The notes under the pieces were generated by a model. That model was given only the letters and a program-made list of their open reading frames with translations. It was not told the DNA's origin and did not search any database. Below, in pieces: positions 4,309-49,636 of a stretch of 64,000 nucleotides of DNA. How positions within the stretch are numbered: position 1 is the first letter of the stretch; every line of letters begins with the position of its first letter. The position numbers and the translations under genes were made by a program. This stretch comes from Desulfoplanes formicivorans (GTDB lineage Bacteria > Desulfobacterota > Desulfovibrionia > Desulfovibrionales > Desulfomicrobiaceae): contig NZ_BDFE01000015.1 in the NCBI RefSeq assembly GCF_001748225.1, forward strand, positions 611,437-675,436. Direction: 5' to 3'.

Positions 4309-6095
4309 CAGCGAAGATCTGGCCCCGTCATACCTACAGCCTGTCCTTTTTGCTGCCTGTGCTTGGCCAGCAGGGCGAATTGAACCGGGAGCAGACCTCC
4401 CTGGTGGTGCGCAAGGCCCGGGAACATGGCATTGGCCGTGATGATCCCCAGGGGCTGGATTTCCTCATTCGTCTGGGGCTCACCCGGGCCAGGGCAATGG
4501 CTTCCGGTCCGGATCGCCGTCTTGACGAGGAAAGCATCCTGCGTGCCGTGGCCCAGGATGCCGGGCTTGAGTACAAGCGGATCGATCCCCTGGAGATTGA
4601 TCTCGAAGTGAGCGCCGGTCTGGTTTCCGAAAGTTTTGCCCGCAGGAATCTGCTTGTGCCCCTGTACATCCAGGACGGGGTTTTGTGCGTTGCCGTGCAC
4701 AACCCCTTTTGTCCCGAGCTGTGGGAGGATGTTGCCCGGGTGACAACCCTGCCGCACCGGGTTTTTCTGACTTCCAGGGAACAGATTACCCGGCTGATCG
4801 AGGATGTTTTCCAGTTTCGTCTTTCGGTCAGGGCGGCCGAGCGGGAAATCGAGGGCCAGGCAGGGCTCGGGGATCAGGAAGCCCGGGTGAGCATTGCCGG
4901 CCGACTGGACCCGACCTCCCAGCATCATCTGGTCAAGGCGGTGGACTATCTGCTTGCCACGGCCCTGGTGGAACGGGCCAGCGACATCCATTTCGAACCC
5001 AAGCGGGATCACAGTCTGGTCCGGTTCAGGATCGACGGTATCCTGCATCCTGTTCACCGTTTGCCCACCAGTGTGCACCAGGCCATGCTCAATCGGCTCA
5101 AGGGCATGAGCCGGCTGGATATTTCCGAAAAACGTCGGCCCCAGGATGGCCGGGTCCAGCTCGTGCTCGAGGGCACCCCAACGGATGTCCGGGTTTCGAC
5201 CATTCCCGTGGCCTTTGGGGAAAAGATGGTTTTGCGCCTGCTTTCAGGCGAGTCCATTCTCAAGCCCCTGGACGCCCTGGGCATGGGGCCTGAGCAGCTT
5301 GGGGCCTACCAGTCCCTGATCCGGCGGACCCATGGTCTGATCCTGGTCACCGGACCCACGGGAAGCGGCAAGTCCACGACCCTGTATTCGACCCTGAAGG
5401 TCATGGCCCATTCGGGTATCAATGTGGTGACCATTGAAGACCCCATTGAAATGATTGTGGAGGATTTCAATCAGATCGGCATCCAGGATCGCATTGGCGT
5501 GGGCTTTGGCAAGATGCTTCGGCACATCCTGCGTCAGGATCCGGACATTGTCATGGTGGGGGAAATGCGGGACCTGGATACGGCTGAAGAGGCCATTCAG
5601 GCCGCCCTGACCGGCCATCTGGTCCTTTCAACCCTGCATACCAACGATGCCGCGTCCACCCTGACCCGCCTCAGGGATCTGGGGGTGGAATCCTATTTGC
5701 TCAATGCCTCCCTTTTGGGAGTCATTGCCCAGCGTTTGGTGCGGACCATCTGTCCCCACTGCAGGGTTCCCAGCCATCCCCGCCAGGCAGACCTGGACGG
5801 ATGGGGGCTAGGGGAGCTCTTTACTCCGGAAGATACCCTGTACCGGGGGGTTGGGTGTGAATATTGCCGCAACACCGGCTATCTGGGACGCGAGGGGCTG
5901 TTCGAGGTGGTGCCCCTTGATGCCGGATTGGGGCAGGGTCTTGATGCGGGCATGGATGTGGAAGGATTGCGTCGGTCCATCCGTACCAGGGGCATCAAAA
6001 GCCTGTTTCAGGACGGCATGGAAAAGGTCAGGGCCGGCAAAACAACCATTGAGGAAGTTCTCCGGGTGACAGGAGGGGCAACGTCCAGGGGATGA
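4305..6095 (+). CDS. GspE/PilB-family secretion or pilus ATPase
   Basis: 596 aa from an ATG that overlaps the rfaE2 stop. Residues about 30-190 match the N-terminal MshEN/T2SSE-N region. Residues about 210-560 form the hexameric ATPase with Walker [12 protein letters not shown], Asp box TIEDPIE, Walker B-like [14 protein letters not shown], and His box [15 protein letters not shown] zinc tetracysteine follows (CPHC and CEYC). The family powers type II secretion or type IV pilus assembly at the inner membrane. No other T2SS or T4P gene is visible nearby, so its machine must be encoded elsewhere. The position after rfaE2 gives no further clue; PilB, GspE and MshE are not distinguishable here. 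Confidence 0.92.
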
Positions 6096-6155
6096 CCGGC
6101 ATGACTGGACCGGATGTGATATCCGGTCCGCGTGTGCACGGTGACTGGTTGTTGC

Positions 6156-6755
6156 TCAATAGGCAGGCAGGGATGTGGTGACACTGGGGGCGAACAGGGA
6201 TGTTCGCCCCTTTTTGTCGTTTCGAGTCAGAAGAACATTGGTGTTGGCATCTCGTGGCAGGGTCATGTGCGTCATGGCCAGGACCTCGTTGGAATCGGCT
6301 TTGAGCACCCGGATGTGAAAAAGCACCCGGTCGCTCAAGACCGTGTAGGTTCCCGTGACCAGAAGCGTTCCGCTGACCGTTGTGGTGTACAGGTCTTCCG
6401 GTTTGCGGGTCAGGCTCATTTCTCCCTGCCTTGGTGCCATAAGGATGGCGTCAGCCCGGCGGATCTCCCTGATCCTGAATCCCTGCCTCACAAGCCACAT
6501 GCTCAGATTTTCCGCGGTAAACCGTGCCAGGGGGGAGCTGCGGGTCAGATCATCCAGATTGACCGGGGTGGTGACAACAAAGGTCAGGGTGTCAAGGTCC
6601 ACACCCTGGTTGTCGGCTCTGTGTTGGAGTTGCCGCACAAGGTCCTGTCCCATGATTGCGCATGGCGACGGGGCGGCGAGGGCAAAGCAGGGACGCGCTG
6701 TCCATGCGATCAGGCAGACGGCCGAATAAAAGAGTAATAATATGGAAGTGCGCAT
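6156..6755 (-). CDS. FlgO-family exported protein
   Basis: 199 aa. ATG at 6755 with GGAG upstream gives a clear Sec signal peptide (RTSILLLFYSAVCLIAW...ALA). The mature part has the FlgO pattern: an N-terminal QDLVRQLQHRA segment, TFVVTTPVNLDDLTRSSPLARFTAENLSMWLVRQGF (compare FlgO's conserved Ser-x-LGR region), a GEMSLTR segment, then a beta-rich domain. FlgO is an outer-membrane protein needed for the stability or assembly of the flagellum in Vibrio. The gene is last in the leftward flagellar operon, which supports the call. No lipobox is obvious, unlike typical FlgO. Confidence 0.72.
   Translation of the reverse strand: MRTSILLLFYSAVCLIAWTARPCFALAAPSPCAIMGQDLVRQLQHRADNQGVDLDTLTFVVTTPVNLDDLTRSSPLARFTAENLSMWLVRQGFRIREIRRADAILMAPRQGEMSLTRKPEDLYTTTVSGTLLVTGTYTVLSDRVLFHIRVLKADSNEVLAMTHMTLPRDANTNVLLTRNDKKGRTSLFAPSVTTSLPAY
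6187..6215 (+). terminator. Terminator of rfaE2-gspE, embedded in the convergent FlgO-like gene
   Basis: GGGGCGAACA (6187-6196), loop GGGA, TGTTCGCCCC (6201-6210), then five T's. The hairpin is about 90 bases after the gspE stop but inside the 3' coding end of the minus-strand gene 6156-6755, where it encodes residues near GRTSLFAPSV. Confidence 0.85.
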
Positions 6756-7644: not shown

Positions 7645-8973
7645 TCAGGTGGATTGGGTGGCGATGAGTTGCTTGAGGGCTTGAAAACTCTGCTGGAGTG
7701 TCGCCTTCTCGGCTATGGGCTGCTGGAGAAAAGATCGGATAGGATCGATCATGGTCAGGGCCGTGTCAATATTCGGATTGCTGCCTTTGGCGTAGGCCCC
7801 GATGTTCACCATGTCCTCGACCTTGTTGTATGTGGCCAGATGGCGGATGAGTCCCTGACCGGCCGCAATGATGTCCTGGGGCGAAACGTCGGAACGCAGG
7901 CGGCTGACGCTCTTGAGCACGTCGATACAGGGGTAGTGGCCCTGGTCGGCCAATTCTCGGGTAAGGACAATGTGTCCGTCCAGGATGGACCGCACGGCAT
8001 CGGCAATGGGCTCGTTGAAGTCGTCCCCCTCGACTAGGACCGTATAAATACCAGTTATGCTGCCGTTTTGATTCTTGCCTGCTCTTTCCAAAAGCTTGGG
8101 CAGGTGAGAAAATACGGTTGGCGTGTATCCCCGGGTGGTCGGCGGTTCGCCCGCAGCCAGGCCCACTTCCCGGGCGGCCATGGCAAAGCGGGTCACCGAG
8201 TCCATCATCAGGATGACGTCTTTACCCTGGTCCCGAAAGAATTCGGCCATGGCGGTTGCCGCGTAGGCCGCCCGCATGCGCACCAGGGGACCTTGATCCG
8301 AGGTGGCAATGACCAGAACCGATCTGGCCATGCCTTCAGGTCCCAGATCCTTTTCAATGAATTCGCGGACTTCCCGACCGCGTTCACCAATGAGGGCGAT
8401 GACATTGACGTCGGCTTCAGTGTATCGGGCGATCATGCCCATGAGGGTGCTCTTGCCCACACCCGACCCGGCCATGATGCCCACTCGCTGGCCTTTGCCA
8501 AGGGTGAGCAGGGAATTGATGGCCCGGACGCCCACATCCAGGGGTTCTGTGATCCTGGGTCGTTCAAGGGGATTGGGTGCTGCGGTGTACAGAGGATTGA
8601 ATCGTGCCGGAGTAATGTGTTCCCTCTTGTCCAGAGGATGGCCAAAGGCGTCCAGGGCATGGCCGAGATACCGGTTGCCCACGGGAAAGACCGGGGGAGA
8701 GGGGGCGTTGCGGATCAAACTTCCGGGTTTGATGCCGCGCATGTCATCATAGGGCATGAACAGGACCGATCCGTCCCTGAAGCCCACAACTTCGGCAGGT
8801 ATACCCTCGGCGTTGTGCCCGTATTCCGGGAGCAGTTGGCAGATGGAGCCAAGGGGTGCCTTGATACCCTGGCCTTCGGCAACAAGCCCCACAACCTTGT
8901 TCACCTTGCCGTATGACTGGGCAGGGGAAAGGTCCGACAGGAGATGCATGGCGGCCTCGGTAGACAGGTTCAC
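7645..8973 (-). CDS. fliI: Flagellar export ATPase FliI
   Basis: 442 aa, GTG start overlapping the fliH stop by 4 bases. It has Walker A MAGSGVGKSTLMGMIARYTEADV, GERGREVREFIE, Walker B VILMMDSVTRFAMAAREVGLAAGEPPTTRGYTPTVFSHLPKLLERAG, all diagnostic for FliI/type III secretion ATPases. It energises export of rod, hook and filament subunits with FliH as stator. FliJ is not visible immediately downstream; the next genes are the FlgO-like pair. Length is normal for FliI. Confidence 0.97.
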   Translation of the reverse strand: MNLSTEAAMHLLSDLSPAQSYGKVNKVVGLVAEGQGIKAPLGSICQLLPEYGHNAEGIPAEVVGFRDGSVLFMPYDDMRGIKPGSLIRNAPSPPVFPVGNRYLGHALDAFGHPLDKREHITPARFNPLYTAAPNPLERPRITEPLDVGVRAINSLLTLGKGQRVGIMAGSGVGKSTLMGMIARYTEADVNVIALIGERGREVREFIEKDLGPEGMARSVLVIATSDQGPLVRMRAAYAATAMAEFFRDQGKDVILMMDSVTRFAMAAREVGLAAGEPPTTRGYTPTVFSHLPKLLERAGKNQNGSITGIYTVLVEGDDFNEPIADAVRSILDGHIVLTRELADQGHYPCIDVLKSVSRLRSDVSPQDIIAAGQGLIRHLATYNKVEDMVNIGAYAKGSNPNIDTALTMIDPIRSFLQQPIAEKATLQQSFQALKQLIATQST

Positions 8974-22789: not shown

Positions 22790-23101
22790 CATTTAAGTAC
22801 GCAGTGCACTTAAGTACGCAGTACTCAGTACGCAGAGCGCAGTTATAAAATTTATAATGTTCATGAATCATTAAAATACATTTGTTTCGCAATATCATGT
22901 TAAATTCACAAGATGCCGAAAACCACTGCGTACTGTGTTCTGCGCACTGTGCACTCACGTGCGCAGTTATAAAAAAATCATAATGTCATTAAGTCTTTTA
23001 TATGCATTTGTTTCGCAGTATCATGTTAAATTCCCAAAATGCCGAAAACCACTGCCTCCTGTGTTCTGCGCACTGCGTACTTAAGTGCCCTGTGCACTTA
23101 A
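22790..23101. repeat. Two tandem heptad-array elements with AT-rich payloads
   Basis: The block reads forward heptads (22790-22842), a payload of about 82 bases, a mixed reverse-then-forward array (22925-22966), a related payload of about 85 bases, and reverse heptads (23052-23101) ending ACTTAA at the moeA stop. Payloads share a nearly identical right half beginning CATTTGTTTCGCA. The two copies are offset by 124 to 126 bases. Forward unit AG[T/G][G/A]C[G/A]C, reverse unit G[C/T]G[C/T][A/C]CT. It fills the 343-base gap between moeA and the MoeA-PBP gene. Confidence 0.85.
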
Positions 23102-35420: not shown

Positions 35421-35575
35421 TTTTCATAAGGAACCTGTCCCCATGTTCACGCAGAAGTGCGCAGTACACAGTGCGCAGGGCGCAGGGAAAACAACGTGCC
35501 CAATTGAACAACAACGAGCCAGGCTCTGAATCCTCTGGCTCGTGAGCAACCAAACGCGACTTTTACGCGTAAGCC
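35421..35575 (+). repeat. Repeat block A, copy 1 (REP-like site + heptad array + shared tail)
   Basis: TTTTTCATAAGGAACCTGTCC (REP-like site at 35432), AAGTGCGCAGTACACAGTGCGC heptads (35455-35487), then a tail ending ACGCGTAAG. The heptad array and the tail recur, with a few changes, at 37178-37303. Between the blocks lie the decayed RAYT remnant and the toxin-antitoxin genes. Confidence 0.82.
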
Positions 35576-37024: not shown

Positions 37025-37095
37025 GTGAACCTCCTGGATTATGTCTTTGTAAGGATTGTTCCTTACCGCGTCAACATAAGAAGAAAGCCCATTTC

Positions 37096-37161
37096 TATAC
37101 AAAGAATATGCAACCTGTCCCTTTGTTCAATACAAAGAATATGCAACCTGTCCCTTTGTTC
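37096..37161 (+). repeat. 33-bp tandem duplication containing REP-like sites
   Basis: Unit starting ATACAAAGAATATGCAACC occurs twice without a gap (37096-37128 and 37129-37161), each with AACCTGTCCCTTTGTTC. The two are identical as read. Confidence 0.9.
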
Positions 37162-37177
37162 AGTCCCTTTGTTCACT

Positions 37178-37303
37178 CTTTAAGTGCGCAGTACGCAGTG
37201 CGCAGGGCACAGAGAAAAACAACGTGCCTAATTGAACAACAACGAACCAGGCTCTCAATTTTCTGGCTGGTGAGCAACCAAACGCGACTTTCACGCGTAA
37301 GCA
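37178..37303 (+). repeat. Repeat block A, copy 2
   Basis: Heptad array TTAAGTGCGCAGTACGCAGT... (37178-37212), then the tail shared with 35489-35575, ending ACGCGTAAG. It precedes a 105-base stretch without a gene and the REP-like site at 37409 on the 3' side of the intact RAYT. Confidence 0.85.
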
Positions 37304-40140: not shown

Positions 40141-40318
40141 AAATGTTTCCTTCCTCTTTTTGGTTGAACAGATAAAAAAACCAGCCTGACACCATGTAAC
40201 TGATCTCTGCCTAGTCGTTCCGGGCAGGGATTGCAAGGAGAAAATGGCGGGTTTTTGACAAAAGTTCAAAAATTTTTACGGTATAATTTTTTTAACTGCG
40301 GTTTTAGGAATAAAAGAA

Positions 40319-40362
40319 GGGAGACAGGAGACAGGAAGCGGGAGGCAGGAGAAGGGTAGGGA
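40319..40362 (+). repeat. Divergent heptad array, GGAGACA type
   Basis: Period-7 array with units GGAGACA, GGAGACA, GGAAGCG, GGAGGCA, GGAGAAG, GGTAGGG. The sequence differs from the AGTGCGC class but the period and purine-rich character are the same. It lies between the porin leader and the VCBS gene stop at 40419. Confidence 0.7.
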
Positions 40363-42127: not shown

Positions 42128-42199
42128 TTAAGTGCACAGTACGCAGGACACAGTGCGCAGGGCACTCAAGTGCACAGTACGCAGTACGCAGTGCGCAGG
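42128..42199 (+). repeat. Double forward heptad array
   Basis: Two successive runs: TTTAAGTGCACAGTACGC... to GGGCACTCA, then AGTGCACAGTACGCAGTACGC... to GTGCGCAGG. Both in forward orientation, between the divergent VCBS and TPR genes. No reverse array is near. Confidence 0.85.
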
Positions 42200-42362: not shown

Positions 42363-42869
42363 ATGGTTTCCAGACGAGATTTTTTATTCAGCGCGGTGCG
42401 CCGGGTGCGCCAGAATGTGGAGGAGGCGGGTTCGGTTTCTGTTTCCAAACCGGTTTCTGGCATTGGTAAAGAAATCAGGGAGGCCGACCAGTTGTTTGGC
42501 CAGGGAAAGTGGGAGCAGGCCCGGGACGCGTACAAGGAAGTTCTGGCCCGGGAACCCCATCATCTTGAGGCGCGGGTGCAGGTGATGATCTGCCACTACC
42601 GGCTGGATGAAATCAATCCGGCCAAGGTGTGCGCCCGACAGGTTCTGCAGAAAGATCCTGCAAACCATACGGCCAGGCTGTTTCTGGGGCTGGCATGGCT
42701 CAAAAAGGACAATCTGGAAAAGGCCATGGAGGCCTGGGACGGGTATTTTGACACCACCAATCCCCAGGTGCTCCGGGAAGTCAATGTGCACAAGGCCCTT
42801 TTCGAGTCAGGAGAAGAGCTCGACTGCCAGGCCGTTGCCCGGGAAATGGAGAAGGTGATATTTGTTTAA
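42363..42869 (+). CDS. TPR protein with a twin-arginine-like N-terminus
   Basis: 168 aa. ATG 42363, GGAGGTGA about 10 bases upstream. N-terminus VSRRDFLFSAVRRVRQ resembles a Tat motif (SRRDFLF) but no hydrophobic signal core follows, so export is doubtful. Residues about 40-140 hold TPR-like repeats (IREADQLFGQGKWEQARDAYKEVLAREPHHLEARVQVMICHYRLDEINPAKVCARQVL, then TARLFLGLAWLKKDNLEKAMEAW). SRR-F-L N-termini without a hydrophobic core are seen in redox-enzyme chaperones. The stop TAA lies inside the first unit of the following heptad array. Confidence 0.8.
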   Translation: MVSRRDFLFSAVRRVRQNVEEAGSVSVSKPVSGIGKEIREADQLFGQGKWEQARDAYKEVLAREPHHLEARVQVMICHYRLDEINPAKVCARQVLQKDPANHTARLFLGLAWLKKDNLEKAMEAWDGYFDTTNPQVLREVNVHKALFESGEELDCQAVAREMEKVIFV

Positions 42870-43449
42870 GTGCGCAGTACACTTAAGTGCGCAGTACGCA
42901 GGGCACAGTGCGCAGGGCACTCAAGTACGCAGGGCGCAGAAAAAATATTTTCGCGGTAAGGCAGGGAAGAGGGCGCAGAAGTGAAAGGGGTAAGTCAATG
43001 GATACGCCACGTCATGGATTTGAGAATCTTGAGGTCTGGAAAAGGGGGTGCAGGCTTGCCGTAGCCCTTCATGGGGCAATGAAAACAGGTAAAGATTTTT
43101 GTTTTCGGGATCAAATATGGCGATCTGCCCTTTCCATTCCGAGCAATATTGCAGAAGGTTATGAGCGGAAAAGCCCCAAGGATTTCATCAGATTTTTGGT
43201 CATTGCCAAGGGATCATGCGGGGAATTGAGGACGCAACTTTATATCGCACAACAGGTCGGTTTCCTAAACAAGAAACACTGTCAGGATTACATCGGGGAA
43301 ACCCAAGAAATTTCAGCCATGCTCTCCGGCCTGATCAAAACCATCCAACACAAACATTCCATCAACTAACACCTCCCATTGAGCGCAAGCACCAAGCTCT
43401 GCGCCCTGCACACTGTGCCCTGCCTACTCAAGTGCGCCCTGCGCACTTT
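42866..43449 (+). mobile_element. Heptad-array element enclosing a four-helix-bundle gene
   Basis: A forward array (42866-42939: AGTGCGC, AGTACAC, TTA, AGTGCGC, AGTACGC, AGGGCAC, AGTGCGC, AGGGCAC, TCA, AGTACGC, AGGGCGC) and a reverse array (43397-43449) enclose a payload of about 457 bases with one gene. The left end overlaps the TPR stop codon; the right end reaches the stop codon of the histidine-kinase-like gene at 43451. No transposase is visible. I infer one inserted unit; mobility is not shown. Confidence 0.65.
42998..43369 (+). CDS. Four-helix-bundle protein (23S rRNA intervening-sequence/Avd-like family)
   Basis: 123 aa, ATG 42998 with AAGGGG. GFENLEVWKRGCRLAVALHGAMKTGKDFCFRDQIWRSALSIPSNIAEGYERKSPKDFIRFLVIAKGSCGELRTQLYIAQQVGFLNKKHCQDYIGETQEISAMLSGLI is the S23/IVS four-helix-bundle pattern (W-x-x-x-x-x-L near the start, R-S-A-x-S-I-x-x-N-I-A-E-G, GSxxELxTQL). 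The family is known from intervening sequences in 23S rRNA genes and, as Avd, from diversity-generating retroelements, where it binds RNA or the reverse transcriptase. No rRNA or reverse transcriptase is near. The gene lies wholly between inverted heptad arrays. Confidence 0.92.
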   Translation: MDTPRHGFENLEVWKRGCRLAVALHGAMKTGKDFCFRDQIWRSALSIPSNIAEGYERKSPKDFIRFLVIAKGSCGELRTQLYIAQQVGFLNKKHCQDYIGETQEISAMLSGLIKTIQHKHSIN

Positions 43450-43450
43450 G

Positions 43451-44182
43451 CTACAACTCTGTTCGCTGGTTGGGTATTTCCAACCTGAAGGTGGTCTGTT
43501 CCCCGGTGGTGGTCAGGTCGAGGTTCCATCCGGCCTGGTCGGCAAAGAACTTGACCATGGGCAGGCCCAGGCCAAAGTGGTCGGGCCGGGTGGTGGCGTG
43601 TTCTTCGAACGGGGCCAGGTCATGGGGGAAGGTGGTGGGCGAGGTCAGGGTGCATACGATTCCCTGACCCAGGGGGGCCATTTCAAAACCCAGATTGTGC
43701 TGGCCGCCCGGATCCTTGTCCATGCAGGCTTCCACCGCGTTTTTCAGTGCCTCGTCCACGGTCAGGGTGAGCAGGAAGGGGGGAAGCTGCAAGGTGGGCA
43801 GGGAATCGTGGATCGCCATATCCCTGATGATCTTGTGTTTGTAGAACAGGTTGTTGGTCCAGAATCTGTCCACCCATTCCATGAACTGGCCCACATCGAT
43901 CATGGTCACTTCTTCGTCCATAAAGAAGCTGTGCAGCTCGTTGTCCCGAAGCATTTCCGCCAGTTTGTTCACGGCCTGGGTCAGCCTGTCGAATTTGGGC
44001 AGGAGATCCGCGGCCGGCATGTCCGGCTGGCGGTGGATCTTGCCCCGGAAAAGTTCCAGCTGCATTTCCAGAACGTGGCAGAAATTATTGGCGTTGTGGG
44101 TCATACCGGGGATCTGTCCGCCGGCATTGGCAAGAACGCGGGTACGGGCCAGGTGCAACCACTCATCATAGGTTCTGCTCAC
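43451..44182 (-). CDS. Histidine-kinase-like protein
   Basis: 243 aa, GTG start overlapping the PilZ-gene stop by 4 bases. A degenerate H-box (GQIPGMTHNANNFCHVLEMQLEL) near residue 30 precedes an HATPase domain: N-box VDEALKNAVEACMDKDPGG, G-box HFGLGLPMVKFFADQAGWNLDLTTTGEQTTFRLEIP. No membrane segment or sensory domain, so it is cytoplasmic and probably takes input from a partner such as the PilZ protein. The H-box is unusual; phosphorylation at His is not certain. The stop codon abuts a heptad array. Confidence 0.78.
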   Translation of the reverse strand: MSRTYDEWLHLARTRVLANAGGQIPGMTHNANNFCHVLEMQLELFRGKIHRQPDMPAADLLPKFDRLTQAVNKLAEMLRDNELHSFFMDEEVTMIDVGQFMEWVDRFWTNNLFYKHKIIRDMAIHDSLPTLQLPPFLLTLTVDEALKNAVEACMDKDPGGQHNLGFEMAPLGQGIVCTLTSPTTFPHDLAPFEEHATTRPDHFGLGLPMVKFFADQAGWNLDLTTTGEQTTFRLEIPNQRTEL

Positions 44183-48161: not shown

Positions 48162-48358
48162 GAGTGCACAGGGCACAGGAGTGCACAGTACTTCAGAGTG
48201 CGCAGTACACAGTACACAGTGCACAGGGAAAAAGGCGTCTCGAATCGATTGATGAAGGTGTCCTGCCTTCCAATGTGCTTTACATGGCCATTGCAAAAAG
48301 AAGTGATCGCCCCGGGATTATGATTCTGTGCCCTGCGTACTGCGTACTGTGTACTTTT
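48162..48358. repeat. Heptad-array inverted pair with a non-coding payload
   Basis: Forward array 48162-48227 (AGTGCAC, AGGGCAC, then AGTGCAC, AGTACTT, and AGTGCGC, AGTACAC, AGTACAC, AGTGCAC, AGGG) and reverse array 48326-48358 ending GTACTTTTTT at the purH stop. The payload of about 98 bases carries no ORF. The element fills the gap between the RNB gene start and the AICAR-transformylase stop. Confidence 0.82.
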
Positions 48359-49636
48359 TTAATGCTTGAACGAGCGCTGGCCCGTGAAGACCATGGCTAC
48401 CTGGGGCACGGCCTGATTGACGGCCTGGATGACCTCGTGATCGCGGATGGACCCGCCGGGCTGGGCAATGGCCGTGATGCCCTGGGCCAGGGCCACGTCA
48501 ACGCCGTCGCGAAAGGGGAAGAAGCCGTCGGAGACCATGACTGATCCGGGCAATCCGCCCTTGGCCTTGTTTGTACGGGCCATGATGTCCTCAAGGAGCG
48601 TTCGGGCGTTTTCATCCTGGAGGGCCTTTTCCTTGAGCTCGTACAGGGAGCAGCTCTGTTCCTCAAAGGCCAGGTTGTCGGCATACTTGGTATAAGCCTT
48701 GTGGATGGCCAGTTCCACGCATCCCACCCGGTCCTGTTCACCCGTGCCGATGGCCGTGGTCACCCCGTTCTTGGCCATGATCACGGAGTTGGACGTGACC
48801 CCGGCCTCAACAGCCCAGGCAAATACGAGATCGTCGGCTTCTTGCTTGGAAGGACCCCGGGCGATGAAGGTGGAACCGTCTTTGGACGTGGCTTCGGCAG
48901 GCAGGAAATCGTCGGCTGCAAGGATCTTGTTGCGGAAGGAAAACTGGGCAATGATCCCGCCGTCGGTGAGGGACTTGAGGTCCAGAAAGGGAGTGTTCAC
49001 CAGGGTTTCCAGCTTGGCCAGGCCGGGGATTTCCAGGATGCGCAGGTTTTTACGCGATTTGAGGGTGTCCACGGTGCCGGGTTCAAAAGAGGGGGCCGCA
49101 ACCACCTCAAAATATCCCGAGGCAATGATCTCGGCGGCCTTGGCATTGAGGGGCCGGTTGACCACAATGGCCCCGCCAAAGGCGGCAATGCGGTCGGCCC
49201 AGAAGGCCTTGAACAGGGCCGTGTCTATGCCCTCGTCGGACCAGGCCGCGCCACAGGGGTTGTTGTGTTTGAGGATGACGGCAGCGGGTTTGGCGGTGAG
49301 ATACTGGAGGATATTGATGCCGTTGTCCACGTCGGTCAGATTGATCTTGCCGGGATGCTTGCCCGCCTGGATCATCTGTTCTTCGGTCATGCCGGAAACC
49401 AGAGCCTCCCCGCCCTGGCGCAGGGTGACCCCGCCCAGTTGGAGAACGCCCTGTTTGAGTTCGTACAGGGCGGCGGGCTGGTCGGGATTTTCTCCATAGC
49501 GCAGCCCCTGTTCCTGGCCGTTGATGGTCCAGGTTCTCTTGTGAAAGGTCAGGGTGGTCTCTCCCAGGGTTACGGTCATGGTGGGGGGAAAGGGATCGGA
49601 TTGAATGGTCTTGTACATGGTTTTCAAATCGCTCAC
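48359..49636 (-). CDS. purH: AICAR transformylase (stand-alone C-terminal half of PurH)
   Basis: 425 aa, GTG start with AAGGAG upstream. AICAR-transformylase blocks: LRYGENPDQPAALYE, INLTDVDNGINILQYL, AVILKHNNPCGAAW, AFGGAIVVNRPLNAKAAEII, EVVAAPSFEPGTVDTL, VSDGFFPFRDGVDVALAQGITAIAQPGGSIRDHEVI. It formylates AICAR with 10-formyl-THF to give FAICAR for the cyclohydrolase at 14669-15268. Both activities therefore exist but are split over two distant genes, as in other Desulfovibrio relatives. Confidence 0.97.
   Translation of the reverse strand: MSDLKTMYKTIQSDPFPPTMTVTLGETTLTFHKRTWTINGQEQGLRYGENPDQPAALYELKQGVLQLGGVTLRQGGEALVSGMTEEQMIQAGKHPGKINLTDVDNGINILQYLTAKPAAVILKHNNPCGAAWSDEGIDTALFKAFWADRIAAFGGAIVVNRPLNAKAAEIIASGYFEVVAAPSFEPGTVDTLKSRKNLRILEIPGLAKLETLVNTPFLDLKSLTDGGIIAQFSFRNKILAADDFLPAEATSKDGSTFIARGPSKQEADDLVFAWAVEAGVTSNSVIMAKNGVTTAIGTGEQDRVGCVELAIHKAYTKYADNLAFEEQSCSLYELKEKALQDENARTLLEDIMARTNKAKGGLPGSVMVSDGFFPFRDGVDVALAQGITAIAQPGGSIRDHEVIQAVNQAVPQVAMVFTGQRSFKH

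Follow-up and report, generated by a model that had tools for sequence, protein, structure and literature searches.

Inverted heptanucleotide arrays around an IVP-family gene of Desulfoplanes formicivorans: a probable copy of a minimal mobile element

Between two convergent protein genes of Desulfoplanes formicivorans, and not within an rRNA gene, lies a small gene of the family known from 23S rRNA intervening sequences (IVS; 23S_rRNA_IVP or S23, hereafter IVP), enclosed by two arrays of heptanucleotide units in inverted orientation. Are these arrays the ends of a mobile element, repeats that move by other means and have picked up a gene, or regulatory sites at the ends of genes? The locus was studied within a stretch of 64,000 nucleotides (the window), together with its counterparts in a congener, in other Desulfobacterota and in many other phyla. 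On the whole of the evidence, we consider it probable that the locus represents one copy of a minimal mobile element, in which an IVP gene sits between inverted arrays of 7-bp units.

The putative window element and its heptad family

The features discussed below are, in window coordinates:
22796..23098, strand not assigned: tandem of two inverted-pair units that have a related spacer of about 85 bp, IVP absent; a stop codon lies 4 bp from the right edge
42131..42198, plus strand: single forward array of the CAGKRCR family, upstream of the TPR gene
42363..42869, plus strand: TPR gene, ending in the stop codon that forms the left edge of the element (context)
42867..43450, plus strand: whole putative element (heptad array, IVP gene, inverted heptad array), with limits set by analogy with empty and filled sites elsewhere
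42868..42939, plus strand: forward heptad array, CAGKRCR family
42998..43369, plus strand: IVP gene (four-helix-bundle family)
43399..43448, minus strand: reverse heptad array, more degenerate
43451..44182, minus strand: convergent gene, weakly similar to HATPase_c and ending in the stop codon that forms the right edge of the element (context)
48163..48356, strand not assigned: inverted heptad pair of the CAGKRCR family, IVP absent; the gene at 48359-49636(-) has its stop codon 4 bp from the right edge

The element fills exactly the gap from the stop codon of the TPR gene to that of the convergent HATPase-like gene. A preliminary description of this DNA, made from the letters alone, had a forward array starting in the TPR stop codon, a reverse array reaching the stop of the convergent gene and a lone ORF of the IVS family between them, and all three points are borne out. 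The forward array reads (A)AGTGCGC AGTACAC TTAAGTGCGCAGTACGC AGGGCAC AGTGCGC AGGGCAC TCAAGTACGC AGGGCGC AG, with two 10-base steps inside (TTAAGT/TCAAGT), and starts inside the TPR stop TAA (42867-42869). The reverse array, the outer edge of which lies 2-4 bp from the HATPase-like stop at 43451, is weaker (CAGKRCR is matched by four units at 1-2 mismatches), and this degeneracy counts against the reading as a mobile-element copy. The window copy is placed in the mobile class because of its anatomy, not by an empty site of its own.

ORF and profile searches of the element identified the PF05635 gene as the sole gene between the arrays, and revealed no transposase or recombinase; its ORF content likewise holds no reverse transcriptase, and no template or variable repeat lies within it. 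The IVP gene likely starts at ATG 42998, giving a protein of 123 aa; the GTG at 42887, which opens the longest ORF, was rejected because it sits within the array and the ATG suits the family better. The protein matches PF05635 (E 4e-32, 110.9 bits against a cut-off of 33.8, profile positions 1-106 of 106), TIGR02436 (E 8e-34, 116.2 bits against a cut-off of 24) and NF008912 (E 7e-47). Its structural model (pLDDT 94.6) is a predicted four-helix bundle like the solved family members 2GSC (TM 0.84) and 2RLD (TM 0.78). Modelled similarity extends to Avd of diversity-generating retroelements (4DWL: TM 0.73, Foldseek E about 0.1, probability 1.00, 14% identity; TM 0.73 also to the Avd chains of the DGR ribonucleoprotein), a likeness reported earlier for PF05635 (PMC10053308).

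This is the single strong IVP gene of the genome, the second match being weak and in a 218-aa frame. Weak IVP-like matches that have no flanking arrays were noted at G000:C16:181843-182061 (L002) and in similar frames of 190-270 aa in relatives; these longer proteins are perhaps a resident branch of the fold. Elsewhere (L110 11415-11801), an inverted array pair surrounds a divergent minus-strand IVP-like frame that hmmsearch detected (E 2e-7) and tblastn missed. A single query of 50,697 phage records at E 1e-5 returned no IVP, and phages were set aside as carriers.

The heptads themselves are not a product of chance, since the window contains 49 two-heptad matches against 0.6 expected; the genome contains 192 matches to the two-unit pattern (at most one mismatch), with none for the reversed control. 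The CAGKRCR family is confined to the genus: exact heptad matches number 94 in this genome, 9 in the incomplete genome of a congener (G001) and 1 in 39 other genomes. The arrays, about 15 in the window and dozens genome-wide, are not exclusive to the IVP gene. Many of them form inverted pairs spaced 80-250 bp apart with no gene inside, and most arrays of this genome are without IVP, which counts against the preferred explanation. Such gene-less units seem to have a body of their own, as suggested by the similar spacer (TTTGTTTCGCA.TATCATGTTAAATTC) of the two tandem pairs at 22796-23098. In another genome (G040), the unit GTGGTCG (at most one mismatch) has 25 matches, and 40 further genomes have 0-8 each; it is mostly limited to G040, with a noisier background than for CAGKRCR.

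Several other repeats were observed in and around the window. At 35456-35560 and 37183-37290, two arrays are followed by a similar sequence of about 90 bp that contains short inverted repeats (GAGCCAG..CTGGCTC, ACGCG..CGCGT); CCTGTCCC..TGTTC motifs recur nearby. A 33-bp tandem repeat (TTCAATACAAAGAATATGCAACCTGTCCCTTTG) adjoins a heptad array at 37093-37175. The heptads GGAGACA/GGGAGAC make up a second family, seen once in the window (40312-40360) and, in the congener, upstream of the TPR gene (L113 600-670), with no cognate IVP identified for it.

In the congener, the orthologues of the TPR and HATPase-like neighbours (62% and 58% identical, respectively) enclose a pair of arrays of the family seen in the window, separated by about 100 bp, and no IVP. 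Arrays and gene are thus separable at the window site. The IVP may have been lost there, the pair may be older, or two independent insertions may have hit a favoured place. An IVP of another subfamily is found elsewhere in this congener, with a different heptad.

Arrays beside IVP genes across phyla

The preliminary description had named in advance what would tell against it, namely that most homologues lack flanking heptads. Arrays of 7- or 8-bp units were found on at least one side of 124 of 157 IVP loci from many phyla, and the idea survived, with about a fifth of IVP loci lacking a clear array. In twenty 20-kb regions of Desulfobacterota, strong 7-bp periodicity takes in 6.6% of positions up to 150 bp from an IVP gene, 1.1% between 150 and 300 bp and 0.1-0.4% further out than 500 bp; periods of 4, 5, 10, 11 and 13 are essentially zero. 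A set of 80 loci from many phyla (within 320 bp) gave period-7 arrays at 40 and period-8 arrays at 24, overlap being possible, and periods of 4, 5, 10, 11 and 13 at 0-1 loci. Under the same threshold, 31/47, 91/156 and 36/56 IVP flanks carried 7- or 8-bp arrays, against 2/57 for ParE toxin genes taken from the same relatives. These sets are not random samples of the family, as the 80 loci were picked by a conserved motif (collected with an 8-sequence alignment and biased towards AVSIPSNIA) and the others by score.

The repeat unit follows the protein. The period (7 or 8) tracks the IVP tree with 13 changes, where 200 shuffles gave a mean of 25.9 and a minimum of 21, and unit similarity climbs with protein identity (0.50 below 50% identity, 0.79 above 75%), the units being strongly different between lineages. 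The two arrays of a locus are also cognate: at 95 loci with same-period arrays on both sides, identity of the 5' unit to the reverse complement of the 3' unit is 0.81 within a locus, 0.52 between loci and 0.50 in direct orientation. RNA duplexes of a locus's own 5' and 3' arrays have a predicted mean of -35.6 kcal/mol, against -13.7 for mismatched loci, and the transcripts of the window element and of the element at site A (see below) are predicted to fold better than shuffled sequences (z -4.2 and -3.2, respectively). The earlier suggestion that the inverted arrays could form a stem around the ORF with no rRNA involved is therefore upheld as a structural prediction. A quick exact scan with 23S oligonucleotides, on a partial set of the sampled loci, gave no match that would place them in rRNA.

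Arrays usually start just past a stop codon, in the sense orientation. The array start falls between -15 and +10 bp relative to the stop that closes an upstream frame on the same strand at 44 of 62 loci, and between -3 and +10 at 37, the -15 to -4 class being perhaps inflated because arrays can contain stops themselves; of 80 loci, 63 have their longest upstream frame in the same orientation and 12 in the opposite one. In the window, four outer array edges have a stop codon at a distance of 0-4 bp. This preference may in part be a survival bias in tight operons. Selection of the unit for stops in all frames was considered and rejected, since forward units contain a stop at a frequency of 0.47 against 0.44 for shuffled ones, as expected from composition.

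Filled and empty sites in cyanobacterial plasmids

The comparison of empty and filled sites called for at the outset could be made in cyanobacterial plasmids that are 90-98% identical, where array, IVP gene and array are missing from empty sites as one unit. As empty and filled sites differ by the whole block, the arrays are the ends of the inserted unit. Site A is filled in Trichormus variabilis and Scytonema plasmids and empty in Aulosira, Nostoc linckia and four others (97-98% identical), with a shortened IVP in Nostoc sp. C052. The empty site reads ...AAAAAGTAATTAACAAATAA and the filled one ...AAAAAGTAAT[element]GTAATTAACAAATAA, for a net insert of 428 bp and a 5-bp duplication containing the stop codon of the upstream gene. 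Site B, at a TraM-like gene, is filled in two plasmids, clearly empty in two and occupied by an inverted pair without IVP in one, its right edge not being a clean join; site C, in an integrase operon, is filled in two and empty in three. At site D (empty GGTTCTAGGTTATGC; filled GGTTCTA-AATCAGG...TTCT-GATTATGC) there is no duplication and the stop is restored as TAA; at site D2, which involves a different IVP family, the start codon ATG is present on both sides (3 bp); and at site E the insertion falls within a gene, about eleven codons before its 3' end, the left-edge sequence supplying a new TAA. With duplications of 5, 0 and 3 bp at sites A, D and D2, no constant target-site duplication is seen, and the idea of a classical transposon with a fixed duplication was rejected. 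This inconsistency points to no known transposition chemistry, and some of the sites may reflect recombination or deletion.

The same element recurs at new sites. That of site A is found again at sites D and E, with DNA similarity (78-82%) that stops at the arrays. Between copies at three unrelated loci, dS is 0.9-1.3 and dN/dS 0.10-0.15, so that the protein is conserved as the element moves between sites. Gene-less pairs are inserted as well: at site F, inverted pairs without a gene are present in three plasmids and absent from two, one pair being nested in another, and an additional pair has inserted into an IVP ORF. The earlier view of a self-contained element is partly supported: in these plasmids the block inserts whole, but gene-less pairs are polymorphic insertions too, and the congener's pair at the window site lacks the gene.

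Gene-less GAGTCAG pairs with a recurrent spacer sequence (ATTAGTGG..CCCCCACTAATTG) were observed at L269 2130-2280 and 2920-3130 and at L270 1440-1616; one pair of this set breaks an IVP ORF.

Driver of the movement and relation to known systems

We infer that the IVP protein drives the movement. In the transcript, the two arrays would pair into a long stem and leave the IVP ORF in its loop, as in rRNA intervening sequences; an IVP oligomer would recognise the repeat stem, as RNA or DNA, and carry the ends to the target; and gene-less pairs would be mobilised in trans, as REP sequences are with RAYT. Cutting and joining of DNA could be performed by IVP itself or by a host enzyme, for instance a reverse transcriptase by analogy with Avd. 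As Avd partners a reverse transcriptase, an RNA route would be attractive, as a guess. Against this explanation, no catalytic domain was recognised in the protein of the element.

It is unlikely, if worth keeping in mind, that the heptad pairs themselves are the mobile unit, moved by a host or transposon factor, with IVP genes as passengers that gain expression from the operons they enter. Gene-less pairs do outnumber IVP copies in this genome, the insertions at site F and the solo pair within an IVP ORF are gene-less, and so is the pair at the window site in the congener. Passengers should vary, however, and in 27 regions (551 kb) the cognate inverted pairs lying less than about 450 bp apart enclosed IVP-type genes or none, with two exceptions in which array pairs surround parts of other genes. 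The association across phyla with different units, and a period that tracks the IVP tree, also argue against passengers.

We regard as still less probable that the arrays are regulatory or structural sites (for mRNA stability or transcription ends) bound by IVP to control host operons, the insertions being a by-product of recombination between repeats. The placement of arrays at gene ends would suit such a role, as would the function of Avd-fold proteins in ribonucleoproteins and, in the congener, a spacer with a terminator-like hairpin followed by T (judged by eye). Against it are the precise-edged insertions in 90-98% identical plasmids and the empty sites, which are free of repeats, so that recombination between existing repeats cannot start the insertions. 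Replication slippage at gene ends, with a gene in between by chance, is hardly credible: over-represented heptanucleotide repeats of many genomes are ascribed to slippage in work cited by two studies (PMC4692102, PMC4679880), but the controls with other periods and with ParE, the inverted cognate units and the array-free empty sites all contradict it here.

The preferred reading is then a new kind of minimal mobile element of about 430 bases, with an Avd-fold protein and dispersed non-autonomous copies. The closest known system is the IVS of 23S rRNA (Leptospira, Coxiella; PF05635/S23p), which shares an IVP-family ORF between terminal inverted repeats and a similar size, that of Coxiella being 428 nt with a 28-bp stem (PMC4990558) and thus comparable to the 428 bp of site A. 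The mobility of IVS, with the ORF serving it, was suggested earlier (Ralph and McClelland 1993, as cited in PMC4990558) rather than demonstrated there, and IVP ORFs are known from rRNA insertions of CPR bacteria (PMC11270868). Unlike IVS, the present elements lie outside rRNA, end in tandem 7- or 8-bp arrays, follow stop codons of protein genes and have dispersed gene-less copies. Avd appears to have a fold in common with the modelled window IVP, the window element differing from Avd systems in what it lacks inside.

REP/REPIN sequences and RAYT are arranged in a similar way, a single coding copy being accompanied by many non-coding inverted copies scattered between genes; here the gene encodes a four-helix bundle instead of a Y1 (HUH) transposase, and the repeat is a tandem heptad array. 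Intergenic heptad arrays resembling ours are described in the accessible parts of two papers, for the heptamer GGGAATC of Xanthomonas and Nostoc (70-75 convergent pairs per Xanthomonas genome, with no association with mobile elements found; PMC4692102) and for TAACTGA of Calothrix and Beggiatoaceae (PMC4679880). In those parts a link to IVP is unreported, whereas the link, the cognate inversion and mobility are found here. The open-access literature yielded no paper linking heptad arrays with IVP genes, subscription papers lying outside that search, and the link is provisionally regarded as new.

A wider proposal, which seems to us evenly balanced, is that a new class of single-gene minimal elements spans bacterial phyla and has IVP as its mobility protein, each lineage with its own 7- or 8-bp end repeat, with gene-less copies mobilised in trans, insertion aimed at stop codons, perhaps via RNA, and the rRNA IVS as an rRNA-resident branch. 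If true, this would be one of the smallest single-gene mobile elements, widespread in bacteria and moving without a recognised recombinase. The finding joins three puzzles, the role of S23/IVP proteins, the mobility of rRNA IVS and the origin of intergenic heptanucleotide repeats, and the filled and empty sites make mobility directly testable.

IVP elements were also observed in a CRISPR context, as assigned by reading repeats and sequence; in one genome (G250) an element lies within a CRISPR array. An IVP element and truncated copies in tandem occupy two CRISPR arrays with related repeats (L249, G250:C1:1928000-1940000, about 7820-8540; L242, about 4700-6560), where the right array joins a partial CRISPR repeat directly. 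An IVP element with GAGCCGT/GAGCCGG arrays is found between apparent cas genes (L249 4230-5000, 6045-6180), with more such arrays past the following gene.
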